DNA from: a virus
IMG/VR virus record: IMGVR_UViG_3300050821_017570
Span: 123,140 to 187,139 of that record
DNA: 64,000 nt
Strand: one strand, 5' to 3'
Both the position numbers and the translations under genes were made by a program. Shown in pieces: positions 16,492 to 21,516 of the stretch (positions within the stretch are counted from its first letter, which is position 1; each line of letters starts with the position of its first letter). The notes under the pieces are model-generated. The model was given only the letters and a program-made list of their open reading frames with translations, made no database searches and was not told the DNA's origin.

Positions 16492-16510
16492 ATCGTGGGT
16501 TGAAAGAAAC

Positions 16511-16654
16511 GTAACCTCAATCGCCGACGGGATTCGAACCCGTAGGGAGCACCTACGTCGTGCTATAGTGCTCCGTCGGATTTCGCCATGGGCACGTCCC
16601 ATCTTGGCTAAGCCGCGACTGCATCTGCCGTTTTGCTACAGCGATTGAGGTTAC
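16511..16654 (-). ncRNA. Noncanonical tRNA-like RNA with extended stem
   Basis: Read on the minus strand from 16645, this has a tRNA acceptor pair (16639-16645 with 16520-16526, 7 bp including one G-U), U8-A9, a normal D-arm (GCA/UGC with GG in the loop), a long variable arm (GGAGCAC/GUGCUCC) and a perfect T-arm (ACGGG-UUCGAAU-CCCGU). The anticodon region is replaced by 28 nt between UCGC and GCGA, holding two small hairpins instead of a 7-nt loop. The acceptor stem continues for 9 more perfect pairs outside the tRNA body, and no CCA follows. It is either a decayed tRNA with a long variable arm or a tRNA mimic. Confidence 0.6.
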
Positions 16655-16667
16655 AGGAAACGCTGAC

Positions 16668-16892
16668 TCAGCGGGTCGCCAGCACGACCGCTTCGGATCC
16701 GATGTAGGCGACTTCGGTCGCACCGGGGAAACAGGTACCCTGATGGGCTGCCTGGTTGATCTCCTGCTGGGAGATCTGGCGCTCGGCCTCACGCTCCGAA
16801 CACCCACGAGCCTTCATCGTGCTGGCGATGAGGGTCCGACGGATCTGCAGGGTGCGGGCGAGACGGACGGCGGCATTGGTCTGGATACGCAT
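16668..16892 (-). CDS. Hypothetical protein, 74 aa
   Basis: The function is not recognised. The ATG at 16892 (MRIQTNAAVRL) has GAGGAG of a start-site hairpin 7 nt upstream. The N-terminal half is a basic helix (ARTLQIRRTLIASTMKARG), followed by a Gln/Glu helix and a short beta end. The same frame is open for 54 more codons upstream to an ATG at 17054, so an extended form is possible. Confidence 0.7.
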   Translation of the reverse strand: MRIQTNAAVRLARTLQIRRTLIASTMKARGCSEREAERQISQQEINQAAHQGTCFPGATEVAYIGSEAVVLATR

Positions 16893-16903
16893 GGGATGAC
16901 TCC

Positions 16904-16918
16904 TCGGGCTATGCCCGA
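16904..16918 (-). promoter_or_regulatory. Start-site hairpin (SD-hairpin)
   Basis: The stem is TCGGGC/GCCCGA with loop ATA, 5' flank GATTC, running into GAGGAG. It precedes the ATG at 16892. Confidence 0.75.
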
Positions 16919-16959
16919 ATCGGTGGTGGTTGAATGAAACGAAACGAAGAACGCGTGTT

Positions 16960-17073
16960 TCAAGTCCCGCCGGACCAGCGATCTCCACAGCAACGGTTGC
17001 AAACTGTCGGGGCCGGCAGTGATAGTACGCCGTCACCATTTTGACTGCCACCATACGAGGGAATGGGTCGTAT
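16960..17073 (-). other. Possible 37-codon frame with ATA start
   Basis: A CCTGG/CCAGG hairpin running into AGGAGAG (17079-17098) looks like a gene start signal, yet the codon at the expected distance is ATA (17071-17073). The frame from it runs 37 codons and ends with a Cys cluster (CNRCCGDRW). An alternative ATG at 17054 opens a frame that continues into the 74-aa gene. A further 8-bp hairpin (17051-17075) covers both candidates. Whether anything is made here is uncertain. Confidence 0.3.
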
Positions 17074-17108
17074 GGTGTCTCTCCTGGGGTTAGCCAGGGA
17101 AAACCGAA

Positions 17109-17396
17109 TCAGAACAGACGAAGGCCACGCAGGATCGAGCGCATCTCGTGCTGGCGGCGCTCCTGCTCCTGACGGATCTGCTTGGCCCGGGCCTTCTCGG
17201 CCCGCTGCATGTTCCGCAGGTTCACCATGGCGGCCACGTGGGCGGCCCTGGCCTCGTAGGCCCGAGCACCCTGCTGGTCGCCCAGCCGACGGCACTCGGC
17301 CGCCTGGCTGATCAGGTCGCGGCGTCCGTTTTCGAGACTCCCCCACATGGTAATGACGTTCTCGGGGGTCAGGGTGGAATGGTCACTGTGACTCAC
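17109..17396 (-). CDS. Hypothetical coiled-coil protein, 95 aa
   Basis: The GTG at 17396 (VSHSDHSTL) is the start; the ribosome binding site is GAGGAGG at the foot of a start-site hairpin. Residues about 25-88 are one long Arg/Gln/Glu/Ala helix, likely coiled coil. It is the first gene after the two structured RNA-terminator units, so its expression may depend on read-through of them. Confidence 0.75.
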   Translation of the reverse strand: MSHSDHSTLTPENVITMWGSLENGRRDLISQAAECRRLGDQQGARAYEARAAHVAAMVNLRNMQRAEKARAKQIRQEQERRQHEMRSILRGLRLF

Positions 17397-17406
17397 AAAA
17401 GCCTCC

Positions 17407-17421
17407 TCTGGCTGGGCCAGA
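17407..17421 (-). promoter_or_regulatory. Start-site hairpin (SD-hairpin)
   Basis: The stem is TCTGGC/GCCAGA with loop CCA, 5' flank TATTC, running into GAGGAGG. It precedes the GTG at 17396. Confidence 0.75.
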
Positions 17422-17440
17422 ATAGTGGGGTGATGGACAG

Positions 17441-17494
17441 CAAAAAGAAAAGGATCCCCCACGCGCCTGGCTCGTTAGGCCAGACACGTGGGGG
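17441..17494 (-). terminator. Intrinsic terminator 1 of the tandem RNA region
   Basis: The hairpin has arms 17456-17463 and 17487-17494 (CCCCCACG/CGTGGGGG on the plus strand) plus an inner 5-bp stem (CTGGC/GCCAG). In the minus-strand transcript it is followed by a U-rich tract read from 17454 down to 17442 (UCCUUUUCUUUUU). It lies directly downstream of structured motif copy A. Confidence 0.75.
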
Positions 17495-17511
17495 AAGAAG
17501 AGTACGTTTGG

Positions 17512-17576
17512 GTTAACGGCCCCTTTCGGGGGAGTTAGTGAAACAGGCTCAGGGGGAGTCCTTGTGGACATTCCTG
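17512..17576 (-). ncRNA. Structured RNA motif, copy A
   Basis: In the RNA: outer stem CAGG/CCUG enclosing a GUCC-ACAA-GGAC hairpin, a short linker, then UAAC/GUUA enclosing CCCC-GAAA-GGGG. The same architecture recurs in copy B about 190 nt upstream, with matched stem changes. A terminator follows, so this could be the sensing half of a riboswitch-like leader or the body of a small RNA. I do not recognise the family. Confidence 0.6.
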
Positions 17577-17630
17577 AACGGATTGATCCTCCTCCTTGGT
17601 AGGAATCGATGGATCGTTCTTTTGGTGGAT

Positions 17631-17702
17631 ACCAAAAGAAAAAGGTTGCCCACAGCCACATACCCAGCTCCCGCAACAGAGCCAGATATGGGCTGTGGGC
17701 AA
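17631..17702 (-). terminator. Intrinsic terminator 2 of the tandem RNA region
   Basis: A 12-bp perfect outer stem (17646-17657 with 17691-17702) with further pairing inside, followed in the minus-strand transcript by CCUUUUUCUUUU (17645 downwards). It lies immediately downstream of structured motif copy B. Confidence 0.75.
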
Positions 17703-17708
17703 TCTTTC

Positions 17709-17767
17709 GTAACGGCCTTTCGGGAGTTACGTTGCGGACAGGGGGTAGTCCTTGCGAACATTCCCTG
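17709..17767 (-). ncRNA. Structured RNA motif, copy B
   Basis: In the RNA: CAGGG/CCCUG enclosing GUUC-GCAA-GGAC, then GUAAC/GUUAC enclosing CC-GAAA-GG. Relative to copy A, the inner GAAA stem is shorter by the same amount on both arms and one pair changes from C-G to U-G, which favours conserved structure over conserved coding. It starts 18 nt after the stop of the gene at 17785-18045. Confidence 0.6.
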
Positions 17768-17784
17768 CTTATGAGATTGTGGCG

Positions 17785-18045
17785 CTACTTCGCGCGCTTG
17801 ACCGACCAGAGGCCCTGACGGACCTGATACCAGATGAAACCCGTGGGGAGTTTCGTATCAGGGTTGGTTGGTGCCCAGCAGGGTCCGACGAACCGCTCGA
17901 ACCTACCGGGTGACACTTCGGGTAACTTGACACGGTTCCAGAAACGGTGATTGACCTCGATCCATTGGATCGCCGGATCAGACTCCGCAGGAGACTGACT
18001 GCCGGAATGCGTCTGTTTTGATGATGTAGCCACGTTTGGCGACAT
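17785..18045 (-). CDS. Hypothetical protein, 86 aa
   Basis: The function is not recognised. After a Ser/Gln-rich N-terminus the rest is a compact Trp/Pro/Phe-rich beta-type domain (FWNRVKLPEVSPGRFERFVG, GFIWYQVRQGLWSVKRAK). It is the last gene before the tandem structured-RNA units. The start at 18045 has only a moderate AGAGAAAG upstream. Confidence 0.65.
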   Translation of the reverse strand: MSPNVATSSKQTHSGSQSPAESDPAIQWIEVNHRFWNRVKLPEVSPGRFERFVGPCWAPTNPDTKLPTGFIWYQVRQGLWSVKRAK

Positions 18046-18232
18046 ACGATGATACTTTCTCTTTTACAATGAAGGTATTTGGAGTTCGCGGAGTTTGGGA
18101 TGTCAGCCCAACCCTCCTACCATAACCTTCAGAGCGTGTCAGATGTCGACGGAACGACATATCCCGCCGGAGGCTCGCTCTAACGTTGCGAGCTTTGTTA
18201 CCGTGGATCATGCTCCACCGCAACCATTTCAC
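17978..18232 (-). CDS. Doubtful frame, 84 aa
   Basis: A GTG-initiated minus-strand frame overlaps the next gene by 68 bp, unlike the 1-17 bp overlaps seen elsewhere here, and has no ribosome binding site. The product is very basic. The stretch 18046-18298 otherwise contains no convincing gene; it may be an untranslated leader. Confidence 0.2.
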   Translation of the reverse strand: MKWLRWSMIHGNKARNVRASLRRDMSFRRHLTRSEGYGRRVGLTSQTPRTPNTFIVKEKVSSYVAKRGYIIKTDAFRQSVSCGV

Positions 18233-18298
18233 GTGCCACGAGTATCATGGCAGAGGCGCCGGCTAGCGTAACCGGACGAACCGGAGGATTACGATCCC

Positions 18299-18631
18299 TC
18301 AAACGACCGATACAGCGTACCAATGCCCTGCTTCAAAATACTCCTTCCCAATCAGTACCCACTCTGGCGGTGGGGGTTCACCGGGTGTCAGCCACCCGGC
18401 GGGAACGAATGTATCTCGTTCAAACGGCGCGATTATTGAATCGGCCTCCTGGTGCATCAGCACAACTGTGACGAGCGGGATATCGTCATCCCGCAACTCG
18501 CAATGTGCTTCGCCATATTCGGTCGAGTCTCTGCTACCGAGTTTCTGGAGAAGCAGCTGATGCAGCTCCTCCGTCCACTCCTTGCCGCCGCGCTGACGGA
18601 GCGCGGCTCTGATGTCAGCGAAGCTTTTCAA
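18299..18631 (-). CDS. Hypothetical protein, 110 aa
   Basis: A TTG at 18631 (LKSFADIRAAL) is taken as start because AAAGGA lies 6 nt upstream, inside the end of the previous gene (17-bp overlap). An acidic helix-rich half is followed by a Pro/Trp-rich C-terminus (PPPPEWVLIGKEYFEAGHWY). The function is unknown. Confidence 0.65.
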   Translation of the reverse strand: MKSFADIRAALRQRGGKEWTEELHQLLLQKLGSRDSTEYGEAHCELRDDDIPLVTVVLMHQEADSIIAPFERDTFVPAGWLTPGEPPPPEWVLIGKEYFEAGHWYAVSVV

Positions 18632-18974
18632 GGGGTGTCCTTTCGCAGATATAGCAGATGTAGCCCTCACGTTCCCATGTGTAGAGACCGTGAAGACACC
18701 ATATGCCGTGTGGGTGGGGATAGAACTCCTCTATCCATGGATGCTGGGGCGATACCAGCGGCTCAACGAGACAGACCCTCACCTCATCGCCGGCGAGAAT
18801 CAAATGGTGGGTCCACTTACGGAAATGGTATTCGCGAACCAAACGATTGGTTAGATTGTGGAACAAGTCCCACGCCACCGTCTGGCCAAACTGTCGAACC
18901 ATAAGGGCTCGCGCTGCATGATACCCAAGTATTGGACGGGTTGGTTGCCCCGGAATGAGGAAACCGGCCGTCAT
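18615..18974 (-). CDS. Hypothetical protein, 119 aa
   Basis: The function is not recognised. The start at 18974 overlaps the upstream stop (ATGA); GGAGG lies only 1 nt from the ATG, so coupling is probably needed. It is rich in Trp, His, Tyr and Cys (HPHGIWCLHGLYTWEREGYI, then CYIC) and looks like a beta-rich single domain. Confidence 0.7.
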   Translation of the reverse strand: MTAGFLIPGQPTRPILGYHAARALMVRQFGQTVAWDLFHNLTNRLVREYHFRKWTHHLILAGDEVRVCLVEPLVSPQHPWIEEFYPHPHGIWCLHGLYTWEREGYICYICERTPLEKLR

Positions 18975-20802: not shown

Positions 20803-21516
20803 ATGGCCCAAGAACCCGATCCCGACCTGACGAGCGAGGAGCTTCATAAAGAGGTTCTTGCCGATATCACGAAAGCACTCATTGACCGTCAGGGGCTTAT
20901 ACTGGGCCGGTTTAAGCTGAGGGGCCAGCGAACCACCCCCTACCTGTTACGTCTCGATCGGCTGACCTGTGGGCAGGACTGCTTCGCCATCGCTCGCGCG
21001 ATGGCGGTAACGATACGAGCCCACCATGGCGATGAGCTTGATCTCGTCTGGGGCACCCCCTATGGGGGTATCCCATTGGCCGTCATGACGGCCAACTACT
21101 ATTCGCTCCTAGTGGGTCGGGAAACCCATTGGGGCTATGGGCGCAAACCGACCGATCCGGTATCCGAGGATCCGCCGGACCCGGTGCTGGCGCCACCCGA
21201 TTGGACCGGTGCCAAGGCTGTGATTGTGGACGATCTGTTTGTCGAGGGTGAGGGTATCCGTCAGCAGATCAGTGACCTGAAGCGCGGAGGGGCGGACGTC
21301 GTAGGGGCGGTCACGCTCATCGACCGGTGTGAACGATCGAGGGGTAAGTTCTTTTCAGACCTCATCCATCGTGATACCGGCGTGCCGGTCGTAGGCTGTG
21401 TAACCCTCCCGGAGATCCTCACGACGATGGATCCAAAGCTGCTACCCGAGGATCAACGGGAGGTTCTGTTGCAGCATCTATCGCCAGAGGCGAAGGCCTA
21501 CCAGAGCGGCGGCTAA
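20803..21516 (+). CDS. pyrE: Orotate phosphoribosyltransferase-like protein, 237 aa
   Basis: This is a type I phosphoribosyltransferase. The PRPP-binding loop is AVIVDDLFVEGEGI (about 139-152), preceded by the substrate-side block LVWGTPYGGIPLA (81-93) and an N-terminal FKLRGQRTTPYLLRLD (37-52). This order matches orotate phosphoribosyltransferases, which make OMP from orotate and PRPP in pyrimidine synthesis, and the length is usual for them. GGGGG lies 7 nt before the ATG. No other pyrimidine gene is nearby. A different purine or pyrimidine substrate cannot be excluded. Confidence 0.8.
   Translation: MAQEPDPDLTSEELHKEVLADITKALIDRQGLILGRFKLRGQRTTPYLLRLDRLTCGQDCFAIARAMAVTIRAHHGDELDLVWGTPYGGIPLAVMTANYYSLLVGRETHWGYGRKPTDPVSEDPPDPVLAPPDWTGAKAVIVDDLFVEGEGIRQQISDLKRGGADVVGAVTLIDRCERSRGKFFSDLIHRDTGVPVVGCVTLPEILTTMDPKLLPEDQREVLLQHLSPEAKAYQSGG

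Follow-up and report, generated by a model that had tools for sequence, protein, structure and literature searches.

Tandem copies of a two-hairpin RNA motif adjoining two predicted terminators in a large tailed phage, a candidate cis-acting attenuator

A two-hairpin RNA motif is predicted twice, in tandem, on the minus strand amid a run of small phage genes (about 17768-17709 and 17579-17513), and each copy lies directly before a strong terminator-like hairpin (Table 1). We tentatively read this arrangement as a duplicated, cis-acting RNA-terminator cassette whose structured RNA may tune termination by a put- or nut-like logic. Computation shows the folds, their retention from one copy to the other, the terminator-like hairpins and the place in the gene run. 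The window, the whole stretch of 64,000 nucleotides that was analyzed, corresponds to positions 123140-187139 in a virus record of 187,139 bases (G000). The capsid protein of this record shares 70-76% identity with those of eight further phages in IMG/VR and 26-28% with that of Salmonella phage Arash, and we therefore assign the record to a large tailed phage. Known examples of phage RNAs that regulate polymerase directly while still part of the nascent transcript are few, and a duplicated two-hairpin element before two terminators, with no related element in the searched collections, is a compact candidate.

Table 1. Positions of the predicted RNA elements and adjoining genes in the window
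Feature	Position	Strand	Details
Copy 1, P1	17738..17768	-	GCAGGG-AAU-GUUC-GCAA-GGAC-UACC-CCCUGU; pairing probabilities 0.89-1.0
Copy 1, P2	17709..17730	-	GUAAC-UC-CC-GAAA-GG-CC-GUUAC; pairing probabilities 0.97-1.0
Terminator 1	17634..17702	-	25-bp hairpin 17702-17646, CC, then UUUUUCUUUU 17643-17634; -44.7 kcal/mol
Perfect 10-bp inverted repeat	17617..17640	-	UUCUUUUGGU-AUCC-ACCAAAAGAA; overlaps terminator 1 U tract; seen by folding
Copy 2, P1	17547..17579	-	GUUCAGG-AAU-GUCC-ACAA-GGAC-UCCC-CCUGAGC; pairing probabilities 0.98-1.0
Copy 2, P2	17514..17537	-	UAAC-UC-CCCC-GAAA-GGGG-CC-GUUA; pairing probabilities 0.88-0.97
Terminator 2	17442..17495	-	17-bp hairpin 17495-17455, then UCCUUUUCUUUUU; U-rich tract 17451-17442; -36.5 kcal/mol
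Upstream ORF	17785..18045	-	86 aa; weak coding potential, +0.08 bits/codon; ORFan
Downstream gene	17109..17396	-	95 aa, GTG start; coding potential +0.31 bits/codon; ORFan
Ribosome-site hairpin of downstream gene	17402..17423	-	ATTCTGGCCCAGCCAGAGGAG; one of ten in record
Ten ribosome-site hairpins	5' ends 6923, 13125, 13547, 14544, 15920, 16493, 16920, 17423, 19445, 19972	-	G000:130042-143111

The two copies fold as the initial annotation of this DNA had claimed, at the places given there and on the minus strand, with z-scores for P1 and P2 alone of -2.83 (copy 1) and -3.72 (copy 2); inclusion of the following hairpin lowered these to -7.07 and -7.50, respectively. The same hairpin pair is predicted for both. 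In P1, an NCAA loop caps a GUYC/GGAC stem that adjoins an AAU/UMCC internal loop, and P2 has the consensus UAAC-UC-C(2-4)-GAAA-G(2-4)-CC-GUUA. The gene-free gap of about 390 bp that had been described measures 388 nt, provided that the weakly coding upstream ORF is real; otherwise the gap is longer.

The two-hairpin skeleton alone is expected to occur about once by chance per 187 kb, and the significance of the motif rests on its duplication because a genome of this size would contain one such skeleton anyway. Local alignment of the copies scored 41, whereas the highest score among 3000 dinucleotide shuffles was 26, and the best match of each copy elsewhere in the 187-kb record is the other copy. 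All cells (100%) pair in the structural alignment, compared with 28-60% when the alignment is slid (55-60% for a slide of one column). In this alignment four of the six pairs of the outer P1 helix are altered on both sides; a plain sequence alignment reads the same difference as one symmetric insertion of a G-C pair. P2 is longer in copy 2 by two symmetric C-G pairs, and a C-G pair of the inner P1 stem has become U-G. Two sequences cannot prove a structure; either reading of the alignment requires matched changes on both sides of the stem. Symmetric stem shortening and the C-G to U-G change with retention of pairing, as first proposed, are thus borne out, every stem pair being intact in both copies. 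It is very improbable that the repeat is due to chance or to a recent local duplication without function. No homologue was found in other phages, so long-term conservation cannot be demonstrated, as such an origin would predict, yet substitutions and indels separate the copies, all stem pairs are kept nonetheless, and their similarity is well above that of shuffles.

We also considered conservation of a peptide, since an AATG, with its ATG in P1, and an ORF are present in each copy. Codon scores fall below zero (-0.21 and -0.18 bits per codon, versus +0.31 for the downstream gene) and the frames differ through the length changes, and we rejected a hidden peptide. Together with the paired changes between the copies, these scores agree with the earlier view that structure rather than a peptide is conserved. 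A decoy of the CsrA type was likewise rejected, as the predicted fold places the GGA motifs in base pairs.

A G+C-rich stem with a close U-rich tract lies behind each copy, as expected of an intrinsic terminator and as originally described; the gaps between stem and tract are about 2 nt (terminator 1) and 3-4 nt (terminator 2). Terminator 1 was identified by folding and was not listed by a simple terminator scanner; an AAAG upstream of it can pair with its U tract. Terminator 2 is the strongest terminator-like site within 16500-18800 and had the top score of the whole record in our own scan. Outside the window, on the minus strand at G000:108791-108745, another terminator (TCCCCCGGTGGCC-GAAA-GGCGCCGGGGGA) follows two hairpins, one of them with a GCAA loop, and the 16-nt tail TTTTTCTTTTGGTATC is common to terminator 1 and this terminator (G000:108745-108763). 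This region may be a divergent relative of the cassette.

The stems of both terminators pair with a probability of about 1, independently of P1 and P2, and the duplex energy between the motif and the 5' arm of the terminator was no better than in shuffled sequences (75% and 88% of shuffles were equally good). Thus, these results lend no support to a classical riboswitch or attenuator that works by alternative pairings. Tandem riboswitches, in which two like domains in series each have their own terminator, are well documented (PMC9481103), and a pseudo-cooperative pair sensing a small molecule would share this layout. We consider such a pair highly unlikely. The predicted folds contain no mutually exclusive pairing of motif and terminator, and the cassette lacks a switching overlap, a ligand-linked gene and a known aptamer class; there is no metabolic gene downstream, few positions are unpaired that could form a pocket, and in the collections searched the motif was found in one phage only, with no homologue that has a conserved aptamer. 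Of the initial annotation as a whole, the structured motif, the terminators and the lack of a known RNA class stand, and the riboswitch-terminator reading is unsupported.

The lack of a known class follows from a search of Rfam 15, which gave no family at the gathering threshold; below thresholds there were only chance matches, the best with 22.8 bits against a cut-off of 90. Matches to exact and relaxed DNA patterns in IMG/VR, when read, lacked the flanking pairing or P2. Those read from a pattern search of GTDB had no such structure either; an Opitutales match (L056) was outside those read. When the module was compared by blastn with 50,697 phage records, among them that of HK022 (AF069308), the only match at E values up to 10 was an unrelated one of 20 bp; plasmid records gave no match. 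A covariance model of P1 (R2), run over 20 related or reference phage records, detected the two copies alone. Its five weak matches in 399 Pseudomonadota genomes are near chance level and were plain hairpins or coding sequence with neither the internal loop nor P2. Because only chance matches were seen in IMG/VR, GTDB, phage, plasmid and 19 related phage records, the element appears to be confined to one phage lineage, an orphan as far as the searched collections go, from which records very close to the window may be missing. Tandem-looking matches in two related phages (G008 and G005) turned out to be coding repeats of the collagen-like G-X-Y type. The P1 model matched long, near-perfect hairpins with a CCTTGCGG tip near locus position 1500 in two bacterial genomes (L270 and L273), which are unrelated to the phage motif.

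The closest known systems are phage RNAs that act on transcription. Phages are well known to steer termination in cis with two-stem-loop RNAs, one example being the put RNA of HK022 with its length of about 70 nt (PMC9378689). Like putL and putR, which are phage RNAs of ∼60-70 nt with two stem-loops and internal loops and occur twice per genome (PMC9378689), each copy has two adjacent stem-loops within about 70 nt. The module has no sequence similarity to putL or putR (blastn), the HK022 intergenic regions fold differently, and their loops and bulges are unlike those of the cassette. The put RNA suppresses termination in cis through the zinc-binding domain of the RNAP beta' subunit. It is sited behind the early promoters and affects terminators far away, whereas each copy of the cassette adjoins its terminator. 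In phage lambda, the nut RNA (boxA/boxB) places a small GNRA-type hairpin upstream of the intrinsic terminators tR1 and tL1, a layout in a phage operon that resembles ours; on inspection, however, the cassette has no recognisable boxA-boxB arrangement, it has two composite hairpins rather than one, and no N-like protein was found. ANTAR target RNAs consist of two hairpins with six-base loops, the second of which competes with a terminator. The cassette is similar in having a small hairpin pair adjoining a terminator, but its loops are tetraloops (NCAA and GAAA) and there is no overlap between P2 and the terminator, and we rejected an assignment to the dual-hexaloop ANTAR targets.

We propose that each unit would be transcribed as a two-hairpin RNA directly followed by a strong intrinsic terminator, and that RNA polymerase would meet the two terminators serially and mostly stop. 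As there is no alternative pairing of motif and terminator, control would have to act through a bound factor: P1 and P2 may be bound by RNA polymerase or by a factor from the phage or its host, in the manner of put or nut RNAs. The bound element would then set how much transcription reaches the genes beyond, and doubling would make a tighter gate. Several observations favour this proposal: P1 and P2 persist in the two copies although stem lengths have changed symmetrically and bases have been exchanged in pairs, a stable terminator stem follows each copy, and the cassette lies between minus-strand genes of one run. Against it stand the need for such a bound factor, the lack, in the collections searched, of a homologue with conserved position or structure, the U tract of terminator 2, which at ∼3-4 nt behind the stem is not ideally placed, and a phage-specific promoter that could be present in 17580-17634 or overlap terminator 2.

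Alternatively, the locus could be a double transcript end, with fail-safe terminators of the upstream transcript, structured caps that shield its 3' end or keep ribosomes off, a promoter of its own for the genes downstream and no conditional read-through. The stop codon of the upstream ORF lies 16 nt ahead of P1 of copy 1, close enough to suit this arrangement, and the terminator at G000:108763 also follows two hairpins and has the tail of terminator 1. Inert caps, however, would need neither identical internal loops nor identical loop sequences in both copies, the coding signal of the upstream ORF is weak, and there is little space for a separate bacterial-type promoter before the downstream gene. 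On balance we regard a capped double terminator as rather unlikely; if the locus is only that, its interest is local.

The copies could also be two tandem paralogous small RNAs of about 140 nt, each with its own terminator and a phage promoter, that act in trans on host or phage RNAs. Compact, stable folds closing in strong terminators would suit such RNAs, duplication of whole units is common among small RNAs, and the 54 nt from terminator 1 to copy 2 offer room for a short promoter of the phage. Within 16500-18800 no sigma-70-like promoter was detected, though the phage's own promoters may differ, and a search for a promoter consensus of the phage found none. The regions upstream of the two copies have only a few bases in common, and the proximity of copy 1 to the possible stop codon is a further point against this reading. 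A pair of small RNAs seems rather unlikely; together with the capped double terminator it is a close rival of the attenuator.

The attenuator that we favour would act on a set of genes with a second RNA feature in common. Exactly ten genes of the record begin with a hairpin of the pattern ATTCNRRC-NNN-GYYNGAGGAG, located a few nt before the start codon. All 60 of the 60 cells of its stem are paired, with seven changed on both sides, and none of 500 shuffles scored as high. The ten hairpins are all on the minus strand within 13 kb, and they look like an operon-wide translational regulon; each may perhaps be a binding site for a phage protein. Because the family occurs both upstream (two genes) and downstream (eight genes) of the tandem terminators, its distribution suggests that the terminators divide one regulatory unit. 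The ribosome-site hairpin was absent from 18 related phages, and its pattern had 20 seemingly unrelated matches in IMG/VR. The U tract of terminator 2 is followed after 19 nt by such a hairpin and after 46 nt by the 95-aa gene, the first that any read-through would reach. Given the 19-nt spacing and the lack of a detected promoter, transcription of this gene plausibly needs read-through or a short phage promoter. It seems doubtful, and quite unlikely on present evidence, that the locus represents a new class of phage RNA that has no alternative antiterminator hairpin, controls polymerase at the adjoining terminator and serves, like put or nut, as an attenuator in two copies, linked to a regulon of translational hairpins by which the genes beyond are marked.

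The neighbouring genes gave little information. No family or relative was found for the 95-aa product or for the 86-aa ORF, and the protein of the 95-aa gene had no match in PADLOC, so that we rejected a type III toxin-antitoxin system. Nearly all genes flanking the cassette are absent from the eight nearest phages, the exceptions being a phosphoribosyltransferase homologue (G001) and one weak match (G002), and synteny is therefore uninformative. Between the ORFs at 18299-18670 and 17785-18045, a 250-nt stretch (18046-18298, minus strand) has several predicted hairpins and no clear gene. Outside the window, ∼18 paralogous small genes lie in a row on the minus strand at G000:65000-69800 (L043:5000-9800); they form an expanded family with the motif LRxGQIWxCRxQxYR...DLMxLLWEPP and strong DNA-level repeats. 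A hammerhead-like appearance of these repeats (65-70 kb) was rejected, as they had no Rfam match and correspond to the paralogous gene family. Divergent from the small-gene run that holds the cassette, the plus strand at 20803-21516 encodes an orotate-phosphoribosyltransferase-like protein, whose homologue in G001 is 32% identical and adjoins the same 821-aa protein.
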